In this document: piece by piece, positions 24,074 through 48,568 of the stretch
Layout: every line of letters begins with the position of its first letter
Position numbering within the stretch: the first letter of the stretch is position 1
NCBI GenBank assembly: GCA_018262705.1
Contig: JADFDQ010000009.1
Span: 62,001 to 126,000 of the forward strand
Length of the DNA: 64,000 nt
DNA from: Xanthomonas sp.
GTDB lineage: Bacteria; Pseudomonadota; Gammaproteobacteria; Xanthomonadales; Xanthomonadaceae
Direction: 5' to 3'
Made by a program: the position numbers and the translations under genes
Notes under the pieces: model-generated
The model's database searches: none
Told to the model about the DNA's origin: nothing
Seen by the model: the letters and a program-made list of their open reading frames with translations, nothing else

Positions 24074-24145
24074 AGTATCTGGTCCGCCGGTGCCGGCAGC
24101 TTCCCTGAACAACCCATTCAGGCTACCGTGCATGCAGGGACGCCC

Positions 24146-26414: not shown

Positions 26415-26418
26415 CCGG

Positions 26419-30339: not shown

Positions 30340-31217
30340 TGTCCACCTCCTGCCAATGGACGGGCGATCGCGATGAAGCCCTTGTGCAACAACTCCTGCT
30401 CACTGTAAACGGATAACTCGGCGCGAATCTCCGGAGTGAGCAGCGATCTGCCTTCCTTCGGCAGCCAGCGCCATTCGAGGATCTCGAACTCGGCTTCCAG
30501 CAGGCGGCGGTAGTCGGCGGCCCGCACCTGATTCAGCCATGACGGAATGTGCACATGGCGGCGGGCGCGCAGATGATCCCACGGAGCGACCTTGCGTGAG
30601 GGGGCCGAGTCGGGATGTTTCCATGCAATATGGTGCCCGCCGGACAGGCTGGTGAAGTGATGTACATAGAGGTAGGCCAACCCTTGGGGCTTGAGCGCGC
30701 GGCGCAGGCTGGCAAAAGCGCCAGGGAGATCCTCTACGTGTTCCAGAACCTCATGGGAGACCACCGCGTCCAGGGATCCATCCGCAACAGGAAGTCCTTT
30801 GGCGCCGATGTGGGCCAGCTGTACCCGATCGAAGCGAAGCGGCTTGCCAAAAGCCTCCTCCAGGTCGCGGTAGTAGCGCGATGCGAATCCGAAATCCCAC
30901 GCCGCTGTCCGCAGCGTTCGCTCCAGACCGTTGTGACGCAGCAGGTGCCGGTACTTGGCCCAGCGTCGGTCGGGTTCGGTGACCTCGGTGTCGGCGCCGA
31001 TCGCCTCGGCGCCATCGGAGGCCAACAACAGGGTGAACCAGAAGACCTTGCCGCAACCGAAGTCGAGGATGCGGTGCCCCTTGACCTCGCCGTAATCAGC
31101 TCGGAAGCGACGGTAGAACTCGGCGTGCTCGCGCGCGAAATCGGGCGTATGGCGCAGCGCATAGACCAGCATCGATGCATACAGGCCAGCGCGGCCGGGA
31201 AGGATCGGATCAGGCAT
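30336..31217 (-). CDS. Class I SAM-dependent methyltransferase
   Basis: 293 residues from the ATG at 31217. The SAM loop is ILDFGCGKVFWFTLLLASDG, followed by GADTEVTEPDRRW, and the late motif LDAVVSHEVLEHVEDLPGAFASLRRALKPQG (split: SHEVLEHVED, RRALKPQG). The tail KEGRSLLTPEI is not recognised. Longer in-frame upstream sequence is rejected because it runs back into the preceding gene; the TGATG overlap fixes the start. Confidence 0.8.
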   Translation of the reverse strand: MPDPILPGRAGLYASMLVYALRHTPDFAREHAEFYRRFRADYGEVKGHRILDFGCGKVFWFTLLLASDGAEAIGADTEVTEPDRRWAKYRHLLRHNGLERTLRTAAWDFGFASRYYRDLEEAFGKPLRFDRVQLAHIGAKGLPVADGSLDAVVSHEVLEHVEDLPGAFASLRRALKPQGLAYLYVHHFTSLSGGHHIAWKHPDSAPSRKVAPWDHLRARRHVHIPSWLNQVRAADYRRLLEAEFEILEWRWLPKEGRSLLTPEIRAELSVYSEQELLHKGFIAIARPLAGGGH

Positions 31218-32452: not shown

Positions 32453-34347
32453 TGCATTGCCCCGACGATGGCAGGCGGAGTCGTGGGCGGGGGCTGTCCC
32501 TGTTCGAACAGCTCGATCCAGCGATGCGACAGGGCCATCAGCAAAAGCATGAACAAGTGCCAGCGATGTCCTCGTTGGCGTGGCAAGGAGCGAAGTCGGG
32601 CGACAAACCCGGGTGCAAACAAGCCGTGATGTCGAACCCGCTCGGCGGAGAGCCACTCCGACAACACGGGGCCGAACAATGCGTCGAAGTGGGTTGGGAT
32701 GTCGATCTGGAAGCCGCTTTTCGGGCGTCGCAGCAGGAACCCCGGAAGCTCACCGGCAAATGCCCGGCGCAACTCATCCTTGTGTCCCGGCCGGCCGCGG
32801 TGCTGGATGGGCGTCGGACCGAGGGCCCGCGCCAGGAGCGCGTCGACAAAGGGTACGCGCACCTCGAGGCCGAATGCCATGCTCACCCGATCCTCCTGCC
32901 AGAGCAGGTCGTCTACCATTTTGTTGCGCCATTCGAACTCTGCCATTGCATCCACCGGGCTCAGCCCGACGGGCCAGCGTTGTTCGATCCAATCCAGGGC
33001 CTGCGGCAGTGGCTGATCGAGCATGCGCGGGCCGTAAATGGTTTCGCGCGACACGCTGCCATCCCAGACGTTGCGCAGCAGCCCGTAGGCGCGCGCGGCA
33101 TGGCCAGCTTGCGCCAGCATCAATGCTGCGCGGCGTCGTTCTCCGAATCCTGCCCTGCCGTTGGCCAGGATGGCGGCCGTGCAGCGCCCGAGCGGGGCCG
33201 CCAGAGGGCCCAGCCATGTACTGGCGCGGTGCCAGCTGGCCAAGTGAGAGTGGGCTCGGTAGCCAAGAAACAACTCGTCGCTGCCCAAACCGGAGAGGCA
33301 CACTTTGGCATGGCGGGCGGCCAATTGGGCCACGGCCGCCGATTGCAGGGCGTTGATCTTCGGAACTTCCAGATGCCAGAGCAGCCAGTCCAGAATGGCT
33401 GGCGTGGTCGGGTTCAATACACCTGCCGTATTGGGAATGCCCAACCAGCGGCTCGTTTGTCTGGCATTGTCCATCTCCAACGGGTCGTCGCCGGCATCAA
33501 TCGTGAAGCTCTCGATCGGATCATTTGCGAGCCGCGTGGCCGCGTAGGCGACTATTCCGGAGTCCAGGCCGCCGGACAGGTAACACGCCACCGGCACGTC
33601 TGCGACCAGGTGGGCGCGAACGGAATCCATGACCATCGTGCGCAGGCCCTGTGGTGGATCCTGGGCATCGGGTTGGTCGGCAAAAGTCGAAGTCGAAACA
33701 CCATCGCGCGACCAGGTCAGACACTGGCCGGGCCCCAGTTGGGTGACGCCACGCATCAGGCCCTCACCGCCGGCGGGGTAGCGCAGGTTCAGGAGCAGAT
33801 GCAGCCGCTGGCAATCGAGCACAGGTTGCCATATCGGTGATGCCGTAAAGGCCTTGGCCTCGGAGGCAAACCACAGGCGGTCGCGATCTTGCCTCAGGAA
33901 CAGCGGCTTGATGCCGAAGCGGTCCCTGGCCAATAGGCCCTTGCCACGATCTGCGTCCCAAAATGCCAGCGCAAACATGCCACGCAGCCGCGCCAGCGCC
34001 TTGGGTCCATCCCGTCGCAGCAACTCCATCACCACTTCCGTATCCGATTGGGTGCGCAGGACGATCCCGTCCGCGGCCAATTCGGCGCGCAACTGACGAT
34101 AGTTGTAGATCTCGCCGTTGAACGCAATCACGCAGCGTCGATCGGCGGTCCATAGAGGCTGGAGGCCACCGTTGGGGTCGATGATGGCCAGGCGAACATG
34201 ACCGAAGACCCCGGCCCGCCCAGGCAATTCAGCCATTCCGTGCCCGTCCGGCCCGCGATGGGCCAGACGCTCCATCATGCCCGTCACCTCTGAGTAATCG
34301 TCTTCCGGAGCGTGCGGGGAGCCAAACCAGCCAGTCAGGCCACACAT
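32449..34347 (-). CDS. asnB: Glutamine-hydrolysing asparagine synthase-like amidotransferase
   Basis: 632 residues from the ATG at 34347, which puts the catalytic cysteine at position 2 (MCGLTGWFG), as required for the Ntn glutaminase. The glutaminase domain shows HRGPDGHG and FNGEIYNYRQLR; the synthetase domain has the PP-loop YLSGGLDSGIVAYAA at about 255-265 and SGLGSDELFLGY. In polysaccharide clusters such proteins probably amidate sugar carboxylates rather than make asparagine. The end (WIELFEQGQPPPTTPP) is not typical. It starts two bases after the DUF354 gene stop. Confidence 0.85.
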   Translation of the reverse strand: MCGLTGWFGSPHAPEDDYSEVTGMMERLAHRGPDGHGMAELPGRAGVFGHVRLAIIDPNGGLQPLWTADRRCVIAFNGEIYNYRQLRAELAADGIVLRTQSDTEVVMELLRRDGPKALARLRGMFALAFWDADRGKGLLARDRFGIKPLFLRQDRDRLWFASEAKAFTASPIWQPVLDCQRLHLLLNLRYPAGGEGLMRGVTQLGPGQCLTWSRDGVSTSTFADQPDAQDPPQGLRTMVMDSVRAHLVADVPVACYLSGGLDSGIVAYAATRLANDPIESFTIDAGDDPLEMDNARQTSRWLGIPNTAGVLNPTTPAILDWLLWHLEVPKINALQSAAVAQLAARHAKVCLSGLGSDELFLGYRAHSHLASWHRASTWLGPLAAPLGRCTAAILANGRAGFGERRRAALMLAQAGHAARAYGLLRNVWDGSVSRETIYGPRMLDQPLPQALDWIEQRWPVGLSPVDAMAEFEWRNKMVDDLLWQEDRVSMAFGLEVRVPFVDALLARALGPTPIQHRGRPGHKDELRRAFAGELPGFLLRRPKSGFQIDIPTHFDALFGPVLSEWLSAERVRHHGLFAPGFVARLRSLPRQRGHRWHLFMLLLMALSHRWIELFEQGQPPPTTPPAIVGAMH

Positions 34348-34349
34348 GC

Positions 34350-35402
34350 TCAGCGCCCCGCAGCGGCCACAGCCACCACCGTATCCGCTGCGAAGGCCGC
34401 CACATCCACCGATTCGGCCAACAGGCGGGATCGGGCATGGTCGCTGGCCGCCGGAGATTGCGCCAGCAGCCAAGTGCATGCAGCCTGGATCGATGATTCG
34501 TCCAGGTTCCGGACATTGCGAACCAGACCGTAGCGCGCCTCCTGCTCGTTGCTATAACCGCGCGGCGAGTGGGCGGCATAGACCGCAGGCACCCCGAGGA
34601 TGGCCGCTTCCGAGGCCATGGTGGCACTTTCGCCAAAGTAGCCGGCGCAATAGGCCATCAGGTGATGCAAGTCGCTGACGCGGCCGCGATACTGGTGCGC
34701 CTGCAGTGCGCCAGCCAACGGGGTCTCCGACGAAATGATGACTTTGCCGTGGCTGGCGAGGCGTTCGACGAGTTGCTGCGCCAGTCGCATCGACAGACCG
34801 CAATCGCCCAGGTCGTGGTTGGCAGTCCACGCCACCAGCCGCAGCAGGTAGGTTGGCGCGTGCGGATCCAGGCCTGCCCGGACCGCAACGTCCCTATCCG
34901 GCTGAAAACGCCCGGGACGCAAGTAGGAAAGCTCGTGGTAGCCGTCGTAGCGAACCTCTCGAGCTTTGGGGACCCAACTCTCGTAGCAACGCGGCACCAC
35001 GACCTTCGTCGATACCGGATAGGTCAGGGCATTTTGCAGCTTGGCGATCTCGGTGTCATAGAACACCACCGATGGAATCCGGGCCAGCCATGCGGCATGG
35101 GCGGCAAATATGCCGCCGATGGCAGTGATGACATCGGCCTTCACCTGTCGCGCGAAACGATAGAGAGCAAAGTCCCGCTGCACCAGTTCCCCGGCAAGCC
35201 CGGCCATGCCCGGGCGGGGCCGGCCGATCGGGCGGCACTCCAGGTTGAACTCACGCATCAGCGGCAGTGCGACATCCTTGTCGCGTGCAGCGATATGAAC
35301 GCGATGTCCTGCTGCCTGCCACAGTTGGATCGGATGCCGGAAAAAGTGGACATGGGCCGGATGGCAGAGGTCGACAAGAATGCGACGCGGAAGGCATGAC
35401 AT
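34350..35402 (-). CDS. DUF354-family protein (GT-B / UDP-GlcNAc epimerase-like fold)
   Basis: 350 residues. Opens with ILVDLCHPAHVHFFRHPIQLW, has AIGGIFAAHAAWLARIPSVVFYDTE and KVVVPRCYESW, and ends the second domain with GESATMASEAAILGVPAVYA. This is the DUF354 pattern, related to UDP-GlcNAc 2-epimerases and GT-B glycosyltransferases; whether it transfers or epimerises a sugar is not known. It is the first gene of the nine-gene operon. The 139 bases upstream show no promoter I trust. Confidence 0.8.
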   Translation of the reverse strand: MSCLPRRILVDLCHPAHVHFFRHPIQLWQAAGHRVHIAARDKDVALPLMREFNLECRPIGRPRPGMAGLAGELVQRDFALYRFARQVKADVITAIGGIFAAHAAWLARIPSVVFYDTEIAKLQNALTYPVSTKVVVPRCYESWVPKAREVRYDGYHELSYLRPGRFQPDRDVAVRAGLDPHAPTYLLRLVAWTANHDLGDCGLSMRLAQQLVERLASHGKVIISSETPLAGALQAHQYRGRVSDLHHLMAYCAGYFGESATMASEAAILGVPAVYAAHSPRGYSNEQEARYGLVRNVRNLDESSIQAACTWLLAQSPAASDHARSRLLAESVDVAAFAADTVVAVAAAGR

Positions 35403-35541: not shown

Positions 35542-38541
35542 TCAGCGTCCTTGACACCCGTTGCCGGCGAGCGAGCGCAACAGGATGCGCAAGTCGGGTA
35601 GCAACTGCGGCGCGGGCAAGTCTCCGCCAAAGCGGGAATCGTCGGAACACAGCGTCGCCCAATCCTTTTGCGCAGCTTCGGCGCTCATGAGCGTCAGCAG
35701 CGCGGTGCGATCCAGTGCAGCCGCATCCGGATGCGAGCCGTTGGCGCGCAGCGCGAACCACGCTACGCCGGCGCTGCGCATGGCGGATGGGTTTCGAGCG
35801 GAGCTGCTTGTCAGCAGGTTGAGTGCGCTTCGAACCACGTCGTTTCCTGCAGCGCAGGCGGGCAGCGCCAACGCGTTCCAGACTTGCGCAAGCCTTGCTG
35901 GAGGAAGATACGGGATCAGGTCGCTGGCGGTTTCATCCATGTGCGTGATGAGGCCTCTCAGTTCCTGACCGGTTTCGGGGCAGCGTGTCGCCAAATCCCG
36001 AAGCTGGGAGAGCCGTGCACGATCATCCGTGCCCAGGTCGCTCGTTTCCCCATCTTCGACAAGGAAGGATGCCATTTGCCGCGCTTTCACCGTTCGCGCG
36101 TCTGCGGTGTAGAGGTCGGCCAAAGGCAGCTCGATCTCCGTCGGAAGTGGTGCCGTGATGCCCAATAGATTCAGCGTCGGGTATGACAGCACGGGCAATC
36201 CGGTAAAACTTCCTGCGGCACGGTTCATGAATCTTGCGCGCGGCGCGTCGAGGCTCAGCAGCGGGTAGTAGTCGGAATTTGCCTTTGCGCTGTAAAGCTT
36301 CCCCATGGCCCGCAGCAGGCGCGCGTCGGCGACTTTGTGGAAGGCCAACTGCTCGGGACGGCGAATCCCGAGTCGTGCCAACTCGGAGCCGAGCACGCCG
36401 GAAAGGACGCGGTTGTAGTCCGCAGAGGGAAGCTGCGATTTCGGAGTGGCGATGATGATGAGATCAACGTCGTTGCTCAGCCAGGCCGCGTAGTCGCCGA
36501 ATTCCGGCGTCAGCGCGTTCAGGATCGAGCCGACCAGTCGGTCGTCGATCTCGTAGAGTTGCACCCACTGCACGAACAACCCGTCGGGTTTGAGCTGGTG
36601 CGGGATGAAGTGGTAGAACTCCTTGGAAAACAGGGACCCGACGCCGCTGACCCAGGGATTGGATGGCTCGGAGATGATGATGTCGTATTTGTTCCTGCGA
36701 CCTGCAAACCACGATTTGGCATCGTCGATCACGATATGCGAGCGCGGATCCGTGTAGGCGCGGCCGACGCGCGGCATGAAATTCATTGCACCCTGCACCA
36801 TGGCCGGCTCGATTTCCACGGTTTCAACCCGACGAACGCGCGGATCGCCCAGCGCCGTGTGGGTGGTGATGCCGGAACCGAAGCCGATGATGCCGATGTC
36901 GTGAGGGGCTGGATGCATCGCCAGCGGCAAGACCGAAGCGAGCGTCATCGTCAGTTCGTCGTCGACAGGCTCGGTTCCTGATCCCAGTGCCAAGCCTGCA
37001 TCCACCTTGCCATTGGTCGCAATTGCACCACGGCCATCGGGTGTGACGATGACCGAAACGCTTGCTGTCTTGCCATCGCGATAGAAAACAACCCGATTGG
37101 ACGGGTCCAACTGCGCGTGACCGTTGCGAAACACGCCCGAGGCCAGCCGCATGGGATCGAACGGAACCTGCGTGATGGCCAATCCCAGCGCGGCGGCGGC
37201 CACCAGTCCGGCGGCGGCGAAGCGCAGCATCGCAGGGCGCGAATCGGCGCAGCTTCGCAGCAGGGCAAGGCCCACCGCCATATCGACGAGGGCGCCGGTG
37301 GCCAGCGCCAGCTTCAAGCCCAGCGTAGGGATGAGGAAATGGATCGCGACGAACACGCCGACGATCGAACCTAGCGTGTTCCACGCGTACACGCGACCGA
37401 TGGAGCGTTCGCCATGGCCGGAACGCAACAGTGCAACCGTGAATACGGGCAGGGTCGTGCCTGCAAAAAACGCGGCCGGCAGCATGATCGCAATGGCGAC
37501 CGCGGCGGTGCCGAGGTTGAACAGCGCGTAGCCGCCTTCGCTGCGCGCCAGCGCCTTGAGCAGCCAGCCGACCCATTCGAAGGCGTGGGCATACAGCCCC
37601 AGCGAGGCCAGTGCCGCCAGACCCATGGCCACCTGCATCCAGCCCGCAAGCCGCAGCGGGAGCGGCGCGCGGTCGGCGCGCTTGCGAACCCAGAGTCCCC
37701 CCAGCGCAATGCCGGCGATGAAGGACGCCAGCATCAATTCGAAAGCGTGCTGGGTGCTGCCGACCGCGAGCGCCAGCATCCGGATCCAGACGATTTCGTA
37801 CACGAACGAGGCGGCGCCCGAGATGGCGGTGGCCCACAGCACGAAATGCAAGGTGTGGATGTGTGCGCCGTTTCCATTCGACTGGATGGCAGCCGGCTCA
37901 GGCCGCGCCTCCGGCTCCCGTGCCAGACCCCAGGCCAGGGCTGCGACCGCAAAATTGAGCAACCCGGCCGTCGCGGTGGTGCCAGGCAACCCCACCGTCG
38001 GGATCAGGAGAAACACGCTCACCAGCGCACCGGCAGCGGCGCCGATGCTGTTGGTGAAGTACAACCCGCCCAGCGCATCGCCGTCCCGGCCCGGGAAGCG
38101 GCGGATCACGCCGCCGCTCATCAGCGGGAAGGTCATGCCCAACAGGATCGTCTGCGGCAGGATCAGCAGCGCGGCCAGTCCCCATTTCAGCAGGTCGATG
38201 GCAAACGGCGAACCCAGCGCCGGGATCAGCGTGTTGTAGCTCAGATCGGTCGCTGTCGTGAACAAGGCATGGAACGCAATGCCGAAGATGCCGATGAACA
38301 GTTCCACCAGCGCGTAGCCGCGAAGGAGATTGCGCCAGCGCGTGCCGACGCGCGCGATCCACGCCGCGCCAATCGCCATGCCGCCCATGAACAGCGCCAG
38401 CACCAGCGCCTGGGCGTAAGCCGCGTGGCCGAGGAACAGGCCCAGATAGTGCGACCACACCGATTGGTAGATCAGCCCCGCGAAGCCGGACAGCACGAAA
38501 ATTGCGAGCAGCCAGTGGCGCTTCGAAGAGGGGTTCGCCAT
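35542..38541 (-). CDS. Fused MFS-like / spermidine-synthase-like membrane protein with C-terminal extension
   Basis: 999 residues from the ATG at 38541 (a TTG two codons earlier is possible). Residues 1 to about 460 are membrane helices in two MFS-like bundles (FVLSGFAGLIYQSVWSHYLG, then ISGAASFVYEIVWIRMLALA). A spermidine-synthase-like SAM domain follows with IIGFGSGITTHTAL at about 550, VETVEIEPAMV and IISEPSNPWVSGVGSLFSKEF. The last 200 residues have no match I recognise and make it longer than the usual 750-800. The substrate of this family is unknown. It lies between the glycan operon and a pilin glycosyltransferase-like gene on the same strand. Confidence 0.82.
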   Translation of the reverse strand: MANPSSKRHWLLAIFVLSGFAGLIYQSVWSHYLGLFLGHAAYAQALVLALFMGGMAIGAAWIARVGTRWRNLLRGYALVELFIGIFGIAFHALFTTATDLSYNTLIPALGSPFAIDLLKWGLAALLILPQTILLGMTFPLMSGGVIRRFPGRDGDALGGLYFTNSIGAAAGALVSVFLLIPTVGLPGTTATAGLLNFAVAALAWGLAREPEARPEPAAIQSNGNGAHIHTLHFVLWATAISGAASFVYEIVWIRMLALAVGSTQHAFELMLASFIAGIALGGLWVRKRADRAPLPLRLAGWMQVAMGLAALASLGLYAHAFEWVGWLLKALARSEGGYALFNLGTAAVAIAIMLPAAFFAGTTLPVFTVALLRSGHGERSIGRVYAWNTLGSIVGVFVAIHFLIPTLGLKLALATGALVDMAVGLALLRSCADSRPAMLRFAAAGLVAAAALGLAITQVPFDPMRLASGVFRNGHAQLDPSNRVVFYRDGKTASVSVIVTPDGRGAIATNGKVDAGLALGSGTEPVDDELTMTLASVLPLAMHPAPHDIGIIGFGSGITTHTALGDPRVRRVETVEIEPAMVQGAMNFMPRVGRAYTDPRSHIVIDDAKSWFAGRRNKYDIIISEPSNPWVSGVGSLFSKEFYHFIPHQLKPDGLFVQWVQLYEIDDRLVGSILNALTPEFGDYAAWLSNDVDLIIIATPKSQLPSADYNRVLSGVLGSELARLGIRRPEQLAFHKVADARLLRAMGKLYSAKANSDYYPLLSLDAPRARFMNRAAGSFTGLPVLSYPTLNLLGITAPLPTEIELPLADLYTADARTVKARQMASFLVEDGETSDLGTDDRARLSQLRDLATRCPETGQELRGLITHMDETASDLIPYLPPARLAQVWNALALPACAAGNDVVRSALNLLTSSSARNPSAMRSAGVAWFALRANGSHPDAAALDRTALLTLMSAEAAQKDWATLCSDDSRFGGDLPAPQLLPDLRILLRSLAGNGCQGR

Positions 38542-38617
38542 GCGCAAGGTTCAGGAGTGGGCAGCCGCCATCATGGGTTTCGTGGCGGGGCTGTGCAAGC
38601 GTGCGGTTGCTCTGCTT

Positions 38618-40477
38618 TCAGTTGGCGTGCCGGGCGTGGGCGACGCCTTCCCTCGGCGCTTCCAGTCTGTCGGCCCAGTCGGAGCGGCCGCGTTTGCGCA
38701 ATTCCTGCAGAAGCCCGGCGACGCTCGGATCGTCGGCGGGAAGGTTCCGCACCGCCTGCTCGAAGTATTGGTAGGCGTCATCGGCGTAGTCCGGGCTTCC
38801 GAGGACGAAATAGCCGATCGTGATGAATTCGTGGGCTGAATATCCGAAACGACTGCTGACGATGTTCAGCGCCTTGATCACGTTGCCGGTGTCCAGTCGA
38901 TCCCCGGCGATCGTCCTGCCCATCAACGTCCAGGCGGACCGGCGGTTCTCGGGGCTCATTGGCACCTGCATCATCCGGTTCAGGTAGTTGGTCCAGTCGG
39001 CTTGCGTGACCGTGCCGTTGCGCGTCTTGTACTGGATGACCAGAGCCAGCGGAGCCGCCGAGCTCTGGATCGCGCCTCCGCGTTCGCAAGCGTCGGTCGC
39101 CTTGGTGAAGTACGGGCTGGAAGTGTCGCCCCTGCTCAGATCGTGATACTGCAGGCAGAGCATCATCCATGCGCGTGGCGATTGCGGCGCAAGCAGCGGC
39201 GCGCTTTCCGCAAAAAGCGTCGGATTCCCCCAGGCCGAAGCGCGCACCCAGGTGCCTGCGCCGAGGCCGGCAAGGGTCAACGCGCATAGCACTCCGATCA
39301 GGCGTTCGGATAGCTTCAAGCGTTGGACCAGAAGCGCGATCAGGTCTGCCGCGGCCAGTACGATCCCGATCAGCGGCAGTTGGTTGCGGTGTTCGAACAC
39401 CAGTTCCAGCCCGATGACGTTGCTGGTCATGAAGTGCCCGGCAAAATACAGCAGCAGGCCGAAGGCAAGCAGCGGGCGACGTTGCCGCAATCGCCACGCC
39501 AAGGCCAGCAGCGCGGCAATGAGAACCAAGGATGGCAGCGTGGTCCACGGCTGCAGCAGGCTGTGGGAAACTTCGAAGTTGTCGTAGAAGAACGGCATCC
39601 GACCCGGAAGCGGCCACAGAATCTGCCCGAGGTGCATGACCAGCACCCGGCCCTCGGTCAACAGCCGTTCCAGACTGGAAAAATTCCGGCCCGGATAGGC
39701 GTCCCAACGCCAGTAGTGCGGAACAACCCAAAACAGGTAAACCAGCAACCCGACGGCGGCGAACCCGGCGAAGCCAATGCGCAGTGCTCGGTGTGTGGCC
39801 GGAGTCGCTGCTCGAAAGCCGAGCACCGTCAGTTCCAGCAAAAGCGCGTAAAGAGGAAACAGCGCGGCATCTTCCTTGGATGCCAGTGCCAGCAACCAGC
39901 AAAGGAGCGCAGCAAGTCCGTATCGCCTGCTCGTCTTGCCGTCAATCTGCGCCAGCCGCATTCGCAGCCAGGCCCACAGCGCCAGTACGAGAAACAACGT
40001 ACAGAGCGTCTGCATGCGCTGCACCACATACAGGACGGTCGACACCTGCAGCGGGTGCAGCGCCCAGGCCAACGCCATGCCCGCCGCAGCAAAAGTCGCC
40101 TTTCGAGGCGGCCAACCCGTTCCGTCCAGCAGGCAGCGGAACAAACCCAGCAGCGCCAGCGCGGTAAGCGCGTGGATGAAGAGATTGGTGGCCTTGAACG
40201 CGAAGGGATCCAGTCCCCAGAACCGGTAATCAACGGCGAAGGTCAGTTCGGGAACGACGCGCAGACCGCCACCGCGCACAGCGAAGCTGAATGCGGCCTT
40301 TTCCAGCGAGGCCAGATCGAACTGCTCGATCCGGATGGCCTCATTGCTTTGGATGTTGTCGCCGTCGTCGAGGATGAAGCCGCCGCTCAGGCCGGGCCGG
40401 AAGCACAGCGCGATCAGCAGGGCGCAGGCGCAGCCGATCAGCAGGGTGGGAAAAAGTCTTCGGGGCGAGGCGTTCAC
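38618..40477 (-). CDS. TMTC-like GT-C membrane glycosyltransferase, paired with pilin gene at 40641
   Basis: 619 residues with about ten membrane helices and a C-terminal soluble part of some 200. After the first helix stands FILDDGDNIQSN (DD at 37-38), the acidic motif of GT-C enzymes, and at about 365 SNVIGLELVFEHRNQLPLIG, which resembles the SN...ERxLYLPSxG block of TMTC O-mannosyltransferases. GT-C enzymes use lipid-linked sugars on the outer face of the inner membrane. The start is GTG at 40477. A paralogue lies at 41201-43075. Pilin glycosylation is an inference from position. Confidence 0.72.
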   Translation of the reverse strand: MNASPRRLFPTLLIGCACALLIALCFRPGLSGGFILDDGDNIQSNEAIRIEQFDLASLEKAAFSFAVRGGGLRVVPELTFAVDYRFWGLDPFAFKATNLFIHALTALALLGLFRCLLDGTGWPPRKATFAAAGMALAWALHPLQVSTVLYVVQRMQTLCTLFLVLALWAWLRMRLAQIDGKTSRRYGLAALLCWLLALASKEDAALFPLYALLLELTVLGFRAATPATHRALRIGFAGFAAVGLLVYLFWVVPHYWRWDAYPGRNFSSLERLLTEGRVLVMHLGQILWPLPGRMPFFYDNFEVSHSLLQPWTTLPSLVLIAALLALAWRLRQRRPLLAFGLLLYFAGHFMTSNVIGLELVFEHRNQLPLIGIVLAAADLIALLVQRLKLSERLIGVLCALTLAGLGAGTWVRASAWGNPTLFAESAPLLAPQSPRAWMMLCLQYHDLSRGDTSSPYFTKATDACERGGAIQSSAAPLALVIQYKTRNGTVTQADWTNYLNRMMQVPMSPENRRSAWTLMGRTIAGDRLDTGNVIKALNIVSSRFGYSAHEFITIGYFVLGSPDYADDAYQYFEQAVRNLPADDPSVAGLLQELRKRGRSDWADRLEAPREGVAHARHAN

Positions 40478-40640
40478 GCAGGGAGTGGGATGCTGCGCTG
40501 GGCAGCCTGGTGCCGGCCCGCAATCATGCCACCTGGATCGGCCGGTGTCTGAACTGCGCCGGCGGATTCAAAGCCAAACGGTGCAGCGTACAGGGAAGCG
40601 ATGCCAGCTGGCCGCAGCGGAGCAGGTTCAGGCGATGGCT

Positions 40641-41003
40641 TTACGGCGCCAGTGAACAAGTGGCATTGCCCGCGTTGCAGCTGGCGTTCTTCAGGATGGC
40701 CGGATTGCCGCGGGTTTCGGGGACGAACACCACCACGGTGCCGGCGGACCAGTCGGCCGGGGTCAGCTGCGCTGGCGTGCCGCTGGAGCAGGCGCTGGGA
40801 CCGAAGGTGCTGCTGTTGCGATTGTCCGAAATGTCGGCCGAGGCCGTGTGCATGAAAGCGCTGGCCTCCTGCAGGCAGGCCGCGTTGGCGGAGCGCTGCA
40901 TGTAGTCGCGATAGGCCGGCAGCGCGATCGCCGCCAGAATGCCGATGATCGCGACGACGATCATCAGTTCGATCAGGGTGAAGCCAGAATTCCTGTGATC
41001 CAC
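40641..41003 (-). CDS. pilA: Type IV major-type pilin 1
   Basis: 120-residue prepilin with a short basic leader MDHRNSG and the class III cleavage site [25 protein letters not shown] (split: G7/F8, then [15 protein letters not shown]). Glu5 of the mature protein is present at residue 12. Cysteines at 43, 72, 109 and 116; the last two (CNAGNATC) should form the C-terminal disulfide loop. The protein is rich in Ser, Thr and Asn and ends CSLAP. It has a consensus sigma-54 promoter and would be cut by the PilD of this window. Confidence 0.95.
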
Positions 41004-41017
41004 GTCACGCCCCTTGA

Positions 41018-41034
41018 GTGATGCAAGCCATCAC
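41018..41034. other. Small hairpin in the pilA1 5' untranslated region
   Basis: GTGATG and CATCAC separated by CAAGC, between the predicted sigma-54 start site and the pilA1 start codon. It could protect or regulate the pilin mRNA 5' end; this is only a structural observation. Confidence 0.4.
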
Positions 41035-41043
41035 ATATAGGAA

Positions 41044-41059
41044 GCAAAATACGTGCCAG
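41044..41059 (-). promoter_or_regulatory. Sigma-54 promoter of pilin gene 1
   Basis: Minus strand reads CTGGCACGTATTTTGC: GG and GC are separated by exactly ten bases and both elements match the TGGCAC-N5-TTGC consensus perfectly. The start site would be near 41033, about 30 bases before the pilA1 start codon. Activation by PilR is expected. Confidence 0.85.
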
Positions 41060-41200
41060 CCGGGAAGCTCAAGATCGATGCTTGCAGTACGGTGGCGTCC
41101 GTGTGTTCACTCGTGGCGTGGCTGACACACCTATCTGAATGGAACTTGCATGCGTTGGGGTTTGGGGCGTCCGGAACTCGAATCCCGCCATTGCCAGGAT

Positions 41201-43075
41201 TCACGGAGCCTGTTGCCGCAGGCGGTCTGCACGCCGGGCTCTTTCCATCGCGAAGGCCTCGATCCTGGCCGCAAGATCCGGCCAGCCTGCCGAGCGCAGG
41301 TCGGAGGCCAGTTCCCAGGCGGCGGGATCGTCTGCCGGGATGCCGTCGATGGCCTTTGTAAAGTACGGGAATGCCTGATCCGGTTCGTGGAAGGTCTTCA
41401 CCACGGCGTCGCCGATCTCCGCGAGCGTTGAGGGCGCAAGATCGACGCGGCGGTTCAACGTGGCGAAGGCGTCCAGCGCCTGCTGCTTGTCGATCGCAAC
41501 CCCCAGGCCCGCGTAGTAGGCAAGCACCAGCGGGGCGCGGATGTTGTCCCAGGTCATCGGCGCACTGCGAAGCCGCTGCTGGAAACGGTTCCAGTCGTTC
41601 GCGTCGACGTCGCCGCGCGCGGTTTTCAGCGCCAGCAGCACCGCCAGGTTGTTGAGCGAGCGTGGGTCGGCATCGGCGCCGTGGGCGCAGGCATCGATGG
41701 CGTTGTTGAGCAAGGGATTGTGCGGGGCTTCAATACCGCCGCCCGCTTTCAGGGTGCCCACGCACAGGTCGATCCACGCCCGCGGCGAGTTGGGGGCGGC
41801 CACGGTCGCGGCGCGAGCCAAGGGCACCGCACCGCGCCAATCGTGGGCGCGCGACAGGGTGGCGCCGCCCAGCCCGATGAGCAGTGCCACGCCCAGTGCG
41901 GCCTGGGCCCGGGGCGGAACTTTCAGGCGTTGCCCCGCCCATGCCAGCGCGCTGCCGGCCGCCAGTACCGCACCGATCAACGCGAAGTGGTTGCGGTGCT
42001 CGTAGGCCAGTTCCAGCCCGATGACGTTGCTGGTGATGAAATGCGCGCCGAAAAACACGAAGACGCCAAGCGCGAACAGCGGTTGGCGCTGGCGCAGCCG
42101 CCAGCCCAGCGCCAGCAGACCGGCAATCAGGGTGATCGCGGGCAGCGTGGTCCACGGCTGCAACAGGCCGCGCGACGGTTGGATCCAGTCGTAGTAGAAC
42201 GGCATGTGCCGTGGCAGCGGCAGCAGGATTTCCCACAGGTACCGGCACAAGACCCGCGCCTGCGTCAGCAGCCGTTCGGCGGAGTTGTAGTCGCGCCCCG
42301 GATAGGGCGCCGCGCTCCAGTAATGGGGAACGACCCACAGTGCATACAGCGCCAATCCGGCGAGGGTGGCCGCGCGGTAGCCGCGTCGCAGCCAGCGCGC
42401 CATGCGGGCTTCGGCGGCGGCAAAACGCAGCACGGTCAGTTCCAGCGCCAGCGTGTAGACGGGCAGGAGCACGGAATCTTCCTTGCAGTCCAGCGCCAGC
42501 GCCCATGGCAACAATGTCAACAGGAACCCCGCGCGCCCAGGTCGCCCCTGCATCTGCGCCTGCCTGGCGTGCAAATATGCCAGCAGCGCAAGTACGAGAA
42601 ACAGCGTGCCCATGGTTTGCAGTCGCTGCACCGCGTACAGCACGGACGAGGCCTGCAGCGGGTGTGCGGCCCAGGCCAGCGCCAGCGCCGGGGCGATCCA
42701 CGCGGCGCGGCGTGGTGGCACCCTTGCCGCCAGCAGCAGGCTTCGGTAGAGCCAGGCCAGCGCGAAGGTCGTCAGCGCGTGGATGAGGAGATTGGTGGTC
42801 TTGAAGGTGGCCGGATCGGCCAACCCGCCGGCGCGCCAGTAGTCCAGCGCGAAGCTCAGCGTGGGCAGGCCGCGCAGGGTCCCGGACGGCTGCGGCGCGG
42901 TAAGCACCGCATACAAGCTGCCCAGGCTCGGGTGTGTCAGCCGGATGCTGGCGTTGTTGACGAGATTGGGAATGTCGTCGAACAGGAACGCGCCCGGCAG
43001 GCCGGGCAGGAACAGCAAGCCGGCCAGCAGGGCGATGCACAGGCTGGCCAGCGGGAATGGGCGCGTGATGGTCAT
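41201..43075 (-). CDS. TMTC-like GT-C membrane glycosyltransferase, paired with pilin gene at 43287
   Basis: 624 residues, paralogue of the gene at 38618-40477 over its full length: FLFDDIPNLVNN after the first helix (DD at 33-34), HPLQASSVLYAVQRLQTMGTLF, PHYWSAAPYPGRDYNSAERLL and SNVIGLELAYEHRNHFALIG (about residue 358). The C-terminal part has helical repeats that may be TPR- or Sel1-like (DKQQALDAFATLNRRVDLAP). It should face lipid-linked sugar and act in the periplasm. It follows pilin gene 2 on the same strand, behind a terminator. Confidence 0.72.
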   Translation of the reverse strand: MTITRPFPLASLCIALLAGLLFLPGLPGAFLFDDIPNLVNNASIRLTHPSLGSLYAVLTAPQPSGTLRGLPTLSFALDYWRAGGLADPATFKTTNLLIHALTTFALAWLYRSLLLAARVPPRRAAWIAPALALAWAAHPLQASSVLYAVQRLQTMGTLFLVLALLAYLHARQAQMQGRPGRAGFLLTLLPWALALDCKEDSVLLPVYTLALELTVLRFAAAEARMARWLRRGYRAATLAGLALYALWVVPHYWSAAPYPGRDYNSAERLLTQARVLCRYLWEILLPLPRHMPFYYDWIQPSRGLLQPWTTLPAITLIAGLLALGWRLRQRQPLFALGVFVFFGAHFITSNVIGLELAYEHRNHFALIGAVLAAGSALAWAGQRLKVPPRAQAALGVALLIGLGGATLSRAHDWRGAVPLARAATVAAPNSPRAWIDLCVGTLKAGGGIEAPHNPLLNNAIDACAHGADADPRSLNNLAVLLALKTARGDVDANDWNRFQQRLRSAPMTWDNIRAPLVLAYYAGLGVAIDKQQALDAFATLNRRVDLAPSTLAEIGDAVVKTFHEPDQAFPYFTKAIDGIPADDPAAWELASDLRSAGWPDLAARIEAFAMERARRADRLRQQAP

Positions 43076-43212
43076 GCGGGCTCTGGCAGAACGATGGATT
43101 TCGAGTCTAGCGGCCTTGTGTACGGATCAGGCCTTGCCGCCCTGGCGACGAGGAGCGCAGGCGTGCGCAAATCTGGCGGGGATAACGCAGGGAAAGCCAT
43201 GCTGCGAGACCT

Positions 43213-43243
43213 GAAAAGCAAAAAGCGCCTTGCGGCGCTTTTC
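43213..43243 (-). terminator. Rho-independent terminator after pilin gene 2
   Basis: On the minus strand AAAAGCGCC-GCAA-GGCGCTTTTTGCTTTT. It ends the pilA2 message just after its stop, so the GT-C gene downstream is expected to depend on read-through or its own promoter. Confidence 0.85.
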
Positions 43244-43286
43244 GCTTGAAGCATCGGCAAGACGAGCTTGCCGGAGAGAGCATGCC

Positions 43287-43640
43287 TTACGGAGCGAGGC
43301 TGCAGGTGCCCGAGCCACCGGCGCAGTTCGTGTCCTTCTTCAGACCCGGCGTACCGCGAGTCTCGGCCACATAGGTCATCGTGACGTTGCCGGTGAAATC
43401 GGACGTCACCATGTCATGACCCGAAGCGCAAGCGGCTGGCGCAAATGCGGTCGGCACACGGTTGTCGGCGGCGTCGGCCACGGCGGTGTTGACGTAGGCC
43501 TTGGCTTCCGCTTCGCAGGCCGCGTTGGCCGAACGCTGCATGTAGTCGCGGTAGGCCGGCAGCGCAATCGCGGCCAAGATGCCGATGATCGCGACCACGA
43601 TCATCAGTTCGATCAGGGTAAAGCCTTGCTGCTTGTTCAT
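43287..43640 (-). CDS. pilA: Type IV major-type pilin 2
   Basis: 117-residue prepilin with leader MNKQQG cut before [16 protein letters not shown]; Glu5 present. The first 41 residues after cleavage are nearly identical to pilin 1 (through [14 protein letters not shown]), while the globular part differs. Cysteines at 42, 71, 106 and 113 have the same spacing as in pilin 1, and the C-terminus is again CSLAP. A local duplication is clear. It has its own terminator and a sigma-54 type promoter, so it may be the main pilin. Confidence 0.95.
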
Positions 43641-43888: not shown

Positions 43889-44467
43889 TCAAAGGGCTTC
43901 GAGATCCCTGCAGGCGATTTCGATGTTGCCGCGCAGGCGGTCGAGGTTGCCGATGTAGCCGCCAAGTGCGGCTTCGGCGCGCTGTCGCAGTTGCCCGGCG
44001 TCGATCAGGCCGCGGCGGGCCAATGCAAGGATGTCCTGGCGATCCTGACTGGCGAATCGCCCAAGCTTGCTGACGGCCAGATCCAGCGGCGTCAGCAGGC
44101 GCACGTCCAGGATATGGGCGTCAACGCCGGGCAGGGCGATGGGTAGTGAGTCGTCGTAGGCCTCTTCGTGGAGGAGGCCAAGGGTGTCGTTGTAGTTGCG
44201 GTCGAAATAGAGCAGCGCGGCGTTGCCGTCCGTGTCCGGGTAGGCGACTTCCAGATTGTCCGGTAGTGCGATGCGGTGGGAAAACGCGGCATCCACGTCG
44301 CGCGAAACTCGAACGCCGGTGTGCAGGTGCAGGGCGGTGCCGCCTGCGATGTACATGCGGATGGGCAGTGCCTGGTGCGAGACGCCGCGCAGCGAATCGC
44401 AGATGCGCTTGGCGATTTCGGCAAGCGCCAGCAGGTAGGCGGAGTTTGCAGGGTGCTTAGGCAGCAC
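43889..44467 (-). CDS. AbiEii-like nucleotidyltransferase (toxin-type)
   Basis: 192 residues from a GTG at 44467. The nucleotidyltransferase motif is MYIAGGTALHLHTGVRVSRDVD, with GG-T-A, the R-S and the D-x-D of the active site. The helical C-terminal half contains LTPLDLAVSKLGRFASQDRQDI, typical of the AbiEii / DUF6036 group. Such enzymes serve as toxins in type IV systems by adding nucleotides to tRNA. It overlaps the XRE gene before it by eleven bases. Confidence 0.72.
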   Translation of the reverse strand: MLPKHPANSAYLLALAEIAKRICDSLRGVSHQALPIRMYIAGGTALHLHTGVRVSRDVDAAFSHRIALPDNLEVAYPDTDGNAALLYFDRNYNDTLGLLHEEAYDDSLPIALPGVDAHILDVRLLTPLDLAVSKLGRFASQDRQDILALARRGLIDAGQLRQRAEAALGGYIGNLDRLRGNIEIACRDLEAL

Positions 44468-44975
44468 GACGGCGTTCCATTTCCAGCATCGGCAAGAACC
44501 GCGAGGGGCGCAGCGGGCTGCTTTGCAGCCAGCGCTCGAAGGCGGCGGGTGTGGATGCGCCGGGGTGCAGGGCTTCCGCCAGTTTCAGTAGTTTGCGTCG
44601 ATTCTCGCCGGGTTGAGTTGCCAGCATCACCGCCAATCCGGCCATGAAAAAGCGCGGGCCGGCATCGGCCCATGCCCGTGCTGACGCGTTCGCTGTGGCC
44701 AGTGCCAGCAAGCGGGCTTCGTCAGCGCGATCCAGGCTGGCCGGAAACAGGCCGTCGGGCGTGGTGGCGTCCGTCACCGTGAGTAGGGCGTCCACTTGTG
44801 TTGCTAAAGCGCGCAGGGTTGCCAGATCGCAGTCGTCGCGACGACGCAGGCGCGACAGGGTTTCCTGGCGCACGCCGGCGCGTCGCGCCCAGTCGGCATC
44901 GGTCAGGCCGCGCGAACGTGCTCTGGCGGTCAGCGCATCAAGCAGGGTTGCAAGGCTGGAGGCCGTGGATTCCAT
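44457..44975 (-). CDS. XRE-type helix-turn-helix protein, probable antitoxin/regulator
   Basis: 172 residues. HTH in LTDADWARRAGVRQETLSRLRRRDDCD at about 24-50 (split: LTDADWARRAGVRQETLSRL). The rest is helical with LFPASLDRADEARLLALATAN. It is the first gene of a two-gene unit with the nucleotidyltransferase and sits 18 bases behind a perfect palindrome that is probably its operator. The pairing resembles AbiE-like toxin-antitoxin systems, where the XRE-type partner is the antitoxin. Confidence 0.72.
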   Translation of the reverse strand: MESTASSLATLLDALTARARSRGLTDADWARRAGVRQETLSRLRRRDDCDLATLRALATQVDALLTVTDATTPDGLFPASLDRADEARLLALATANASARAWADAGPRFFMAGLAVMLATQPGENRRKLLKLAEALHPGASTPAAFERWLQSSPLRPSRFLPMLEMERRRAA

Positions 44976-45347: not shown

Positions 45348-46763
45348 TCAATCAATCCCCAGCTTTCTGAGTTTGTAGCGCAGGGCGCGGAAGGTGATGC
45401 CGAGGGCAGCCGCGGCTTTGGTCTTGTTGTAGCGGTTGTCCTGCAGCGCCTGTTCGATCGCCTTGCGTTCGATTTCCTCGATGAACTCGGGCAGGGCGCT
45501 GGAGGCGGATTCGCGCGGGTCGAGGGTGCGCGGATCGCGGCCGACCGCGGTGGGCAACGGCGTGGCGATCGCGGGGCGCGCTTCGGGCAGCCGCAGGTCG
45601 CTGGCGTGGATGCCGTCGTCGTCGGCCAGCGCGAAGGCGCGTTCGAGGATGTTTTCCAGTTCGCGCACGTTGCCGGGGAAGGTGTAGTGCGCCAGCGCGT
45701 CCAGCGCATCGACGTGCAGCAGCGGTTTGTCGCGGCCCTGCGCGGCGGCCAGCCGGGTGAGGATGGCGTCGATCAGCAGCGGCAGGTCTTCGCGGCGTTC
45801 GCGCAGCGGCGGCACCCGCAGTTCGATCACGTTGATGCGGTAGTAGAGGTCGTGGCGGAACCTGCCTTCGTCGGTCAGCGCGGAAAGGTCCTTGTGGGTG
45901 GCCGACAGGATGCGCACGTCGACCGCCACTTCCGCGTTGGCGCCGACCGGGCGCACCGATTTTTCCTGGATGGCGCGCAGCAGTTTGACTTGCATGTGCA
46001 TCGGCAGTTCGGCGATTTCGTCGAGGAACAGCGTGCCGCCCTCGGCGGCCTGGAACAGGCCGTTCTTGTCGGCATGGGCGCCGGTGAAACTGCCTTTCTT
46101 GTGGCCGAAGAATTCGCTCTCCATCAACTCGGCCGGGATCGCGCCGCAGTTGACCGGAATGAACGGGCCGCCCGTGCGCGAGCTTTCGCCGTGGATGGTG
46201 CGGGCGACCAGTTCCTTGCCGACGCCGGATTCGCCGGCGATGTAGACCGGCGCCTGGCTGCGTGCGACTTTGGCCAGGGTGGCGCGCAGCTGGGCCATCG
46301 CCGCCGACTGCCCAAGCAGCTTGGCGCTGACCGCATCGCCTGCCGCGTCCTTGCCGCGTTCACCGACGCGCAGCTTGAGCGCATGCTGCACGAGGCCGCG
46401 CAGGATCGCCAGATCGACCGGCTTGCTGACGAAGTCGAAGGCGCCGGCCTTGAGCGCCTCCACCGCCGCTTCCTGATTGCCGAACGCGGTGATCATCGCC
46501 ACCGGCGTGTGGGCGTAAAGCTGGGTGATTTCACTCACCAGTTCGATGCCGGAGCCGTCGGTCAGGCGCATGTCGGTCAGGCACAGGGCGAACGGGTGAT
46601 GGCGCAGCAGGGCGCGGGCGTCGTGCAGCGACGAGGCGGTTTCGCATTTCACGCCCATCCGGCCGAGGGTGAGCACCAGCAGTTCGCGGATGTCGCGCTC
46701 GTCGTCGACGATCAGCACGGTAGGCACGGGGCTGGGGGCGGCGCTGGCGGTGGGGGGAATCAT
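45348..46763 (-). CDS. pilR: Sigma-54 response regulator PilR
   Basis: 471 residues from the ATG at 46763; a GTG at 46817 would add 18 residues. Receiver domain with the phosphorylation site LTDMRLTDGSG, a central AAA+ domain with Walker A AGESGVGKELVAR, the sigma-54 contact loop GSFTGA and Walker B GGTLFLDEIAELP, and a C-terminal Fis-type HTH (NKTKAAAALGITFRALRYKL). PilR activates pilin genes; both pilins here have sigma-54 type promoters. It lies 73 bases after pilS. Confidence 0.94.
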   Translation of the reverse strand: MIPPTASAAPSPVPTVLIVDDERDIRELLVLTLGRMGVKCETASSLHDARALLRHHPFALCLTDMRLTDGSGIELVSEITQLYAHTPVAMITAFGNQEAAVEALKAGAFDFVSKPVDLAILRGLVQHALKLRVGERGKDAAGDAVSAKLLGQSAAMAQLRATLAKVARSQAPVYIAGESGVGKELVARTIHGESSRTGGPFIPVNCGAIPAELMESEFFGHKKGSFTGAHADKNGLFQAAEGGTLFLDEIAELPMHMQVKLLRAIQEKSVRPVGANAEVAVDVRILSATHKDLSALTDEGRFRHDLYYRINVIELRVPPLRERREDLPLLIDAILTRLAAAQGRDKPLLHVDALDALAHYTFPGNVRELENILERAFALADDDGIHASDLRLPEARPAIATPLPTAVGRDPRTLDPRESASSALPEFIEEIERKAIEQALQDNRYNKTKAAAALGITFRALRYKLRKLGID

Positions 46764-46836
46764 GATTGGAAGATAACCGCTTGACGCGCTGTGTCCAAGT
46801 GCGACGCGTTGCGGCACCCTGCGGACGGGTATGGTT

Positions 46837-48441
46837 TCAGGAGGTCGTGATCGCGCGGGCGCTGGCCAACCGAATTCTGAAACAGCAGCCGCCGCCGGGC
46901 AGGGCGACGTGGCCGAGGTGGGCGCCGCTGGCCAGACACAGCTCGCGGGCGATGTACAAGCCTAGGCCGGTGCCGTGGCTGGAGGTGGTGAAAAATGGCC
47001 GGAATAACTGCGCGGCGACGGCTTCGGGGATGCCCGGGCCGTGGTCGATGATGTCCAGCAGCGGAGCGCCCTTGGGGTCGATGCGAACGTGCAGTTCGAT
47101 CCGCGCCGGCTCGCCGGGCATGCGTCCGTAGATGCGCGCGTTGTGCACCAGCGCGGACACCGCTTGCTGCAACTGGCGACGATCGACCAGGCACGACACT
47201 TCGCCCTCGGGCGTGCGGGCAGCCAGCGTGTCCTGGTCCAGCGGCTGGGTTTGCCGGTAGTCCTCGACGAACAGGCGCGCGAATTCGGCCAGATCGACGT
47301 GCTCGGGCTGGGAACGCTCGCGCCGCGCCAGGCTCAGCACGTCCTCGATGATGCCGTTCATGCGCCGGGTCTGCTGGTAGATGATTTCCAGCAGGCGGCG
47401 GTCGGATTCGGGAATGTCGCGCGATTCTTCCAGCAGCTGGGTGGCGTAGCTGATCGCCGCCAGCGGGTTGCGGATTTCGTGGGCGAGGCTGGCGGAAAAG
47501 CGCCCGAGCGCGGCCAGCGTCAGGGTTTCCGCGCGCCGCGAGGCCAGTTCGGCGTCATCGAGAAACACCAGCACTTGATCGCCCTCGGCCAGCAGGCGGG
47601 CGAAGCGCGGCAGCACCTCGGGCATGTCCGGGGCCAGCTGCAGGGGGGTGGAGTCCATCTTGCCGTCTTTCTTCCAGCGGCGCAGGCGCAAATCGAGCTC
47701 CGGCGCGGCGGTGGCCAGCAGGCGCCGGCCTTCCCCGGCGCTGCCGACCTGCAGGATGGCGGCTTCATTGGCCAGCCGGATTTCGTCCTCGCCATCCACC
47801 AGCAGCACGCCGGTGCGCATGCGGCGGATGATCAGTTCGTTGACCTCGGCCAGGCTTTCGGCCTGACTGCCGCGCCGCGCTGCCAGCGCCTGACTGACCC
47901 GCATCTGCCGTCCCAGCACGGCGATCAGGCTGGTGATGGCCAGATAGCTGATGCCGAACATCAGGATTTCGGCGATCGGACGCTCCGGATTGATTCCGAT
48001 CAGCAGCAGCCACAGATGCTGGGCGAGCAGCGCCACGGCGGCGCTGCTCGCAGCCGCCATGCCGACCCGCAGCGGCAGCAGCAGGGCGGCCGCGCCGATG
48101 TTGAACAGCAGCATCATCGCCACGCCCGAGGCGACCCCGGGCAGCGCGCCGGCCGCGAGCGCCGCAATCACGATGTCGATGGCGATGCCGATCCCTGCCT
48201 GCCAAACGATGCGTCCGCGCCTGCCGCTTGCAAACAGCGCGCTGGCGGCAAGCAGGTAGCCGATGGCGATGGCTTTGGCCAATGACGAGGGTGGGCTGTC
48301 GTCCAGCAGCAGCCCGGTCGGGCTGAACGCGACCAGGCACAGCAGCGCGGCTTCCAACAGCCGGTACAGGGTGAAGTAGTGCAGCTCGCGGCGGCTGTCG
48401 GCGCTGGCGAGCGTTGTTTGCGGCGGCGTGGCCTCGGTCAT
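46837..48441 (-). CDS. pilS: Sensor histidine kinase PilS
   Basis: 534 residues from the ATG at 48441; an ATG at 48465 is also possible. Six membrane helices in the first 190 residues, then a PAS-like region (LLVDGEDEIRLANEAAILQVG), the H-box LAHEIRNPLAAISYATQLLEES and the ATP-binding part with DIIDHGPGIPEA and GTGLGLYIARELC. PilS phosphorylates PilR; in Pseudomonas it senses pilin in the membrane. The pilS-pilR-pilA layout is preserved here with the XRE unit inserted. Confidence 0.93.
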   Translation of the reverse strand: MTEATPPQTTLASADSRRELHYFTLYRLLEAALLCLVAFSPTGLLLDDSPPSSLAKAIAIGYLLAASALFASGRRGRIVWQAGIGIAIDIVIAALAAGALPGVASGVAMMLLFNIGAAALLLPLRVGMAAASSAAVALLAQHLWLLLIGINPERPIAEILMFGISYLAITSLIAVLGRQMRVSQALAARRGSQAESLAEVNELIIRRMRTGVLLVDGEDEIRLANEAAILQVGSAGEGRRLLATAAPELDLRLRRWKKDGKMDSTPLQLAPDMPEVLPRFARLLAEGDQVLVFLDDAELASRRAETLTLAALGRFSASLAHEIRNPLAAISYATQLLEESRDIPESDRRLLEIIYQQTRRMNGIIEDVLSLARRERSQPEHVDLAEFARLFVEDYRQTQPLDQDTLAARTPEGEVSCLVDRRQLQQAVSALVHNARIYGRMPGEPARIELHVRIDPKGAPLLDIIDHGPGIPEAVAAQLFRPFFTTSSHGTGLGLYIARELCLASGAHLGHVALPGGGCCFRIRLASARAITTS

Positions 48442-48568
48442 CGGTTGCGAGTATGCGCGATGCATGCGGACAAACAACGCATGACGCGCCGCAACACGTT
48501 AAAATGGGCGTTCTTTGACGCGTTTTGCTGCTTGCACGCGCCCGTCTTCACGCTCTCCGGGGTGATTC

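Follow-up and report, generated by a model that had tools for sequence, protein, structure and literature searches.

Two type IV pilin genes in a 64,000-nucleotide stretch of Xanthomonas sp. (assembly GCA_018262705.1, contig JADFDQ010000009.1, positions 62,001 to 126,000; the whole stretch is called the window below) are each followed by a gene for a membrane protein of the GT-C glycosyltransferase type. This arrangement raises the question of what the two GT-C proteins, GTC1 and GTC2, do behind a major pilin. We consider it likely that they belong to a three-part pilin glycosylation system, composed of a donor synthase of glycosyltransferase family 2 (GT2), the GT-C and the major pilin.

Pilin and GT-C genes of the array

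43287-43640, minus strand: pilA2, type IVa major pilin of 117 amino acids, putative acceptor
41201-43075, minus strand: GTC2, 624 amino acids, GT-C_A membrane domain and C-terminal tetratricopeptide repeat (TPR) domain
40641-41003, minus strand: pilA1, type IVa major pilin of 120 amino acids, putative acceptor
38618-40477, minus strand: GTC1, 619 amino acids, paralogue of GTC2

The four genes stand where a first-pass annotation, made from the sequence alone, had placed them, all on the minus strand. As it had also noted, GTC1 and GTC2 align over their whole length (46% identity over 606 columns, E 5e-148) and the two pilins are alike (58% identity over 118 columns, E 2e-41). Both pilins carry the N-methylation motif and four cysteines, at positions 36, 65, 100 and 107 and at 36, 65, 102 and 109 of the mature chains. 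In the genome (2.49 Mb, 24 contigs) the only GT-C copies of this family are the two in the window (E up to 0.01).

The predicted model of GTC2 (pLDDT 95.6) comprises a membrane domain at about residues 1-412, in which we read 11 membrane helices, and a C-terminal TPR domain at about 415-615. The DD motif pointed out earlier (residues 33-34 of GTC2) follows the first helix of the model and is invariant in 74 homologues, and in the EHRN motif (359-362) HRN is invariant and E is kept in 73 of the 74. Altogether 18 residues, DD included, are invariant in the family, all of which GTC1 retains (18/18); HP, QR, KE and EHRN are conserved motifs. Structure comparison by VIA-align matched the model to the GT-C_A fold of OST, PMT and ArnT. 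STT3 and AglB head the fold list, and since PMT and ArnT score almost as high, the fold cannot decide between transfer of a glycan en bloc and of a single sugar. Plain Foldseek with the same model gave TPR matches only (E up to 0.001), so the fold assignment rests on VIA-align; a sequence search of solved structures likewise returned repeat proteins, mostly TPR, among the best 60 of 167 matches. Searches of Pfam and NCBIfam (E up to 0.1) gave no match for GTC1 or GTC2, and the GT-C family has no entry in these libraries.

The two proteins had been called TMTC-like. TMTC1-4, the animal O-mannosyltransferases, have a GT-C/PMT-clan membrane domain of 11 helices, in which a large loop joins helices 7 and 8, followed by TPRs (PMC7801869, in excerpt). 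The GTC2 model shows the same layout, loop and C-terminal TPR region included. Unlike TMTC1-4, to which we set them by description only, the window GT-Cs are bacterial, pilin-linked and devoid of DUF1736 (PF08409), which was found neither in the two proteins (E up to 0.1) nor in the genome, and was not among the 25 families listed of 60 in a wider family search. We reject membership in TMTC for want of this domain; what the proteins have in common is fold and layout only. The best 50 VIA-align rows contained no TMTC or WaaL/PglL chain, which in itself proves nothing.

Linkage with pilin genes across genomes

The proposed pilin link would have been lost if homologues occurred mainly apart from pilins; most of them have pilin neighbours. 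Among loci of the Xanthomonadaceae, the bacterial family of the window, together with other loci found with GTC2, a pilin gene was present in 22 of 29 (L003-L031, 1.5-kb flanks; in the seven without a pilin a second GT-C fills one flank) and in 28 of 37 with flanks of up to 5 kb (L032-L068; some contigs occur in both sets). The genes usually run pilS-pilR-pilA(-pilA)-GT-C; a locus has one to three GT-Cs, and two pilins are frequent. Outside the Xanthomonadaceae, 21 of the 28 best-scoring loci (30 fetched, minus two of the window's family) had a pilin within 1.5 kb. The control GT-C family PMT_2, scanned at the same flank setting with a slightly stricter pilin pattern, had none in 30 loci.

At the level of the class, 112 of 369 sampled gammaproteobacterial genomes carry the GT-C. 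Two of these are Xanthomonadaceae, and 96 of the other 110, those with a fetched locus above 150 bits, were counted. A pilin lies upstream of the GT-C cluster, that is within about 3 kb on the same strand, in 66 of the 96, or in 66 of 88 when negatives with short flanks are set aside. As such flank-corrected counts drop short-flank negatives and keep all positives, the plain counts are the cautious ones. Over 199 rows, Xanthomonadaceae included and identical domains or those covering little of the profile dropped, the pilin was directly adjacent in 121, near upstream in 24, near downstream in five and absent in 41, and eight loci were cut. In the phylum 34 of 299 genomes match; a pilin was found within 1.5 kb in 14 of 26 newly fetched loci (L315, L319, L320 and L322 come from genomes that the family or class sample already contained), and in none of the seven weakest (L324-L330).

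The gap between pilin and GT-C has a structure of its own:

43216-43247, minus strand: possible attenuator separating pilin and GT-C, a 14-bp hairpin with a terminal T run some 40 nt past pilA2

The whole 108-nt stretch behind pilA2 folds at z -3.4, and in our own scan a hairpin with a T run was present in 73 of 129 pilin/GT-C gaps, compared with 0.95 elements on average and two at most in single-base shuffles; a simple terminator scan of the window did not report the hairpin at 43216-43247. In other species a terminator behind pilA attenuates accessory genes (PMC11841053, in excerpt). These data bear on a different explanation, in which the substrate of the GT-C, as of ArnT or the Gtr enzymes, is a lipid or a surface polysaccharide, and its place in the pilin locus serves co-regulation only. 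We regard it as improbable, given the adjoining pilin in most sampled genomes, the hairpin gap resembling that of known pilin accessory genes, and the homology to the pilin-linked TfpW described below.

A GT2 gene as probable partner of the GT-C

24128-25000, plus strand: proposed donor synthase, a GT2 of the polyprenyl-phosphate-sugar-synthase type whose C-terminal part has two hydrophobic stretches

This gene had escaped the first-pass annotation. It is the one in the window among 11 GT2 matches of the genome, it adjoins pilB in divergent orientation, and its product contains PF00535 (E 2.6e-28). The best NCBIfam match is AglJ (E 1e-32; 113.8 bits, cut-off 325), with dolichyl-phosphate hexose transferase and PpgS (73.8 bits, cut-off 370) also among the best and ArnC lower. 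The same gene stands beside pilB in the pil islands of all six relatives compared (77-87% identity).

Within the Xanthomonadaceae, GT2 was present in 42 of 45 GT-C-positive genomes, drawn from 74 others that carry the GT-C, as against 2 of 20 GT-C-negative ones, the listed 20 of 74 (Fisher p 4.5e-11). GT2 and GT-C share a contig in 41 of the 42, at 3.2-17 kb (median 10 kb). The two genomes with GT2 and no GT-C have a completeness of 82-83%. Their contigs break off some 4 and 5 kb from GT2, on a stretch that is GT-C-free, which means that assembly may have missed the GT-C. Tested members of four genera (g1, g7, g27, g33) have both genes or neither, and one genus (g18) is discordant.

Outside the Xanthomonadaceae the GT2, mostly at 50-68% identity, often follows the GT-C immediately. 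The GT2 cluster occurs in 46 of 65 wide loci; 45 of its 47 members are on the same strand as the GT-C, and the median distance is four bases between stop-to-stop frames. With the same definition of proximity as for the pilin, GT2 is just behind the GT-C in 58 of 96 class genomes (58 of 82 without the short-flank negatives); pilin and GT2 are both present in 45 of 75, and at least one of them in 65 of 75.

The co-occurrence also touches the idea that the GT-C is a non-enzymatic accessory protein of pilus assembly, like TfpY or TfpX. TfpY-like proteins are likewise encoded with pilA (PMC11841053, in excerpt). We give this idea very little credence, because an accessory role accounts poorly for the invariant DD and other residues, the conserved motifs, the GT-C_A fold and the association with a donor-type GT2.

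Proposed pathway and its difficulties

In the pathway that we favour, the GT2 would charge polyprenyl phosphate with a sugar at the cytoplasmic side, and the charged lipid would be flipped across the membrane; in the periplasm GTC2 and GTC1 would then transfer this sugar, or a glycan assembled on it, onto serine or threonine of the major pilin. The DD motif that follows the first membrane helix may be the catalytic or metal site, and the TPR domain, placed in the periplasm, may hold the pilin. The GT-C would probably be transcribed with pilA, at a lower level owing to the attenuator hairpin. A GtrA protein was considered as flippase and rejected: the genome's sole copy neighbours a glmU-like gene (by eye) on a different contig and has no link to the locus.

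By resemblance, GT2 and GT-C would take the roles of polyprenyl-phosphate-sugar synthase and GT-C_A transferase seen in AglJ with AglB, or in dolichyl-phosphate-mannose synthase with PMT; here, unlike there, both genes are in a pilin locus and the putative acceptor is the major pilin. In haloarchaea, AglJ starts a glycan on dolichyl phosphate and AglB moves it whole to protein. A variant modelled on this, in which the glycan begun by GT2 is lengthened by cytoplasmic glycosyltransferases before the GT-C moves the complete oligosaccharide to the pilin, overlaps with the favoured pathway, which leaves glycan size open. AglJ as the best NCBIfam match of the GT2 (though under its cut-off), STT3 and AglB at the head of the fold list, and, by eye, GT4-like, epimerase-, aminotransferase- and asparagine-synthase-like frames behind GT2 in other families all suit the variant, and a preprint title cited in PMC11841053 (in excerpt) calls TfpW an oligosaccharyltransferase as well. 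PMT and ArnT fit the fold nearly as well, however, and the genes behind GT2 vary, pilB being next in some loci. We regard transfer en bloc as a tentative option, possible and somewhat doubtful.

Several observations weigh against the three-part system of GT2, GT-C and pilin. The pilins had been described as rich in serine and threonine, which the counts do not bear out: those of the window contain 14% and 18%, and the mean is 17.5% in 88 pilins of GT-C loci and 17.6% in 17 pilins of GT-C-negative loci, that is, no enrichment. Nor did the compared pilins share a conserved Ser/Thr acceptor site; the serine after the last cysteine (CSLAP) is replaced by Ala, Arg, Asp or Gln in some relatives. In 30 of the 96 class genomes no pilin was found upstream, 22 of them with enough flank. 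One clade of eight rows has seven without pilin and one cut, and a six-row clade of Xanthomonadaceae also lacks pilins, its 1.5-kb flanks being mostly taken by a second GT-C. The GT2 falls below every NCBIfam cut-off, and 3 of the 45 GT-C-positive Xanthomonadaceae genomes have no GT2 even with GT-Cs behind pilins, so the donor comes from elsewhere there or the model fails. Finally, the TfpW locus contains no GT2 of the partner family.

Relation to TfpW and other pilin-modifying enzymes

A pilin-linked GT-C had been presented as new, with TfpW as a transferase of another kind. The GT-C behind the pilin is there; its novelty as such is not, and TfpW proved to be a remote homologue over its full length in the same genomic place. 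The family profile found 31 of 398 Pseudomonadaceae genomes. One match (E 1e-17) has the order pilB, pilA, a 641-aa GT-C and a 245-aa protein. As pilA-tfpW-tfpX is PSPA7_5161-5160-5159 (PMC12369383, in excerpt) and TfpX has 244 aa (PMC11841053, in excerpt), gene order and sizes fit the 641-aa protein being TfpW of PA7. Its alignment to the family profile spans 539 columns at 19% identity (28-611 against 33-596; 98.4%, E 4e-15), which makes the window family homologous to TfpW at the sequence level, including the C-terminal region. The two differ in that TfpW has GRFDL and GHERF (by eye) where the window family has QRM and EHRN, and forms a separate branch: TfpW, entered twice, and L119 fall outside a 192-row group with local support 100 (FastTree, long branches flagged). 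The D-Araf that TfpW uses is made by genes elsewhere (PMC12369383, in excerpt).

Of 12 distinct weak matches examined in Pseudomonadaceae, 11 are behind a pilin and one (L210) has none. By eye, seven of the 11 are of the TfpW type (GRFDL and GHERF, one with CRFDL) and four (L117, L118, L204, L207) represent a third pilA-linked GT-C-TPR type, with frames of 543-561 aa and QR and LYRSYLW motifs, which by sequence is distinct from both TfpW and the window family.

Among other systems, the genes of TfpO, TfpM and PglS are often close to their pilin or pilin-like targets, as here. TfpO/PilO, TfpM, PglS and PglL differ in having the O-antigen ligase-related domain common to O-oligosaccharyltransferases and WaaL (PMC12645811, in excerpt, for both statements); in Pfam neither window GT-C matched this domain (Wzy_C). 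In GT-C-negative relatives (a separate comparison covering 15 of the same 20 genomes) other membrane proteins fill the place behind pilA: a GtrA-like protein in L272, of the same genus (by eye), and L273 (Pfam match), and a membrane sulfatase-family protein in L282. L272 and L273 also encode an FAD amine-oxidase-like protein and polytopic proteins with no significant Pfam match. By analogy with TfpO and TfpW in Pseudomonas, this pattern fits a site for exchangeable pilin-modifying enzymes behind pilA.

Evolutionary history of the array

The two pairs had been explained by duplication of a single pilin and GT-C cassette, which the phylogenies oppose. In a 36-row maximum-likelihood tree GTC2 falls in a 17-row group and GTC1 in another of 13 rows, and a tree constrained to unite the five Thermomonas copies is worse by 111 log units (approximately unbiased test, p 2.7e-7), which puts the split of the GT-Cs before the genus. 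PilA1 falls with the L036 and L045 pilins, from other genera (support 100/99), by which the pilin split is older than the genus, and the grouping of PilA2 is weaker (88/76). The pilin test against grouping the two window rows (p 1.2e-6) held only those two, and therefore shows a split before the Thermomonas species parted. Moreover, the arrays of L032, L036 and L045 stop at the pilA1 orthologue, which no GT-C follows. Simple duplication thus lacks support, and from the sequences the present pairs look like the outcome of an old array with gains and losses.

Among relatives, the Thermomonas locus L033 has a frame-broken GT-C copy (6830-8427) between GTC2 and pilA1, which is a whole gene in others. 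A further divergent pilin with 9-10% Ser/Thr occurs in L037 (10657-10968) and L039 (10594-10905), about 4 kb downstream of the GT-C and past a DUF354 gene.

Genomic surroundings and regulation

46837-48477, minus strand: pilS, conserved neighbour in relatives
45348-46817, minus strand: pilR, conserved neighbour in relatives
41043-41058, minus strand: sigma-54-type -24/-12 site, perfect match, 40 bp upstream of pilA1
25087-35402, minus strand: sugar-modification-type genes, possible glycan tailoring
21558-23285, minus strand: pilB
20275-21546, minus strand: pilC
19387-20250, minus strand: pilD, prepilin peptidase

The genes pilR and pilS were named by eye from the sequence. The sigma-54 site is weak evidence for PilS/PilR control of pilA1, with which it fits: a scan allowing one mismatch expects 3.35 chance matches in the window and found one, with no mismatch. 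The promoter scan found no sigma-70 promoters.

The region 25087-35402 encodes a hexapeptide transferase, three methyltransferases, an LPG_synthase_TM protein, an ADH and GFO/IDH fusion, asparagine synthase, DUF354 and one gene with no assignment. Except for weak methyltransferase matches in two, these genes are not conserved in the islands of six relatives. Outside the Xanthomonadaceae the genes behind GT2 also vary (GT4-like, epimerase-like, aminotransferase-like, asparagine synthase-like, or pilB; N-termini, by eye) and resemble the window's own island.

Adjoining the pilin/GT-C array is a gene for a 1001-aa fused MFS/spermidine-synthase-like protein (35542-38547). It is also present beside the pil loci of L012, L020, L032, L033 and L036, and near GT-C-negative pil loci (L280-L282). 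Between pilA2 and pilR, overlapping genes for a nucleotidyltransferase (43889-44467; DUF6036, AbiEii-like) and a weak HTH protein (44457-44975) are possibly a toxin-antitoxin-like pair; L040 also holds a DUF6036 nucleotidyltransferase (66% identity).

Novelty and biological meaning

A GT-C behind pilA that glycosylates the pilin is already known in kind, namely TfpW, an arabinosyltransferase of P. paraeruginosa (PA7/Pa5196). As far as we searched, what is new is the separate, widespread GT-C family, its linkage with GT2 and the relation tying it to TfpW. We found no description of the family in open-licence literature, beyond which TfpW papers may mention it, and a 2025 review on O-glycosylation in bacteria mentions neither TfpW nor GT-C in its main text.

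Taken more widely, we lean towards the view that the pilA-GT-C-GT2 operon, which occurs in many of the gammaproteobacterial families sampled, encodes a system of general use for pilin glycosylation. The system would be a bacterial counterpart of the pathway of dolichyl-phosphate-sugar synthase with PMT/TMTC (or AglJ with AglB), serving the major pilin and backed by a variable glycan island. TfpW and at least one further GT-C type of Pseudomonadaceae would be interchangeable options at this position, their diversity perhaps maintained by pilus-specific phages, resistance to which has been published for TfpO and TfpW (PMC11841053, in excerpt). If true, the system would bear on such resistance, might be a source of new pilin-specific transferases for glycoengineering, and would give a function and a donor route to a GT-C family absent from the libraries and a GT2 with no specific entry. 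Pilin glycosylation would then be usual in a large share of Gammaproteobacteria, and not confined to a few pathogens.

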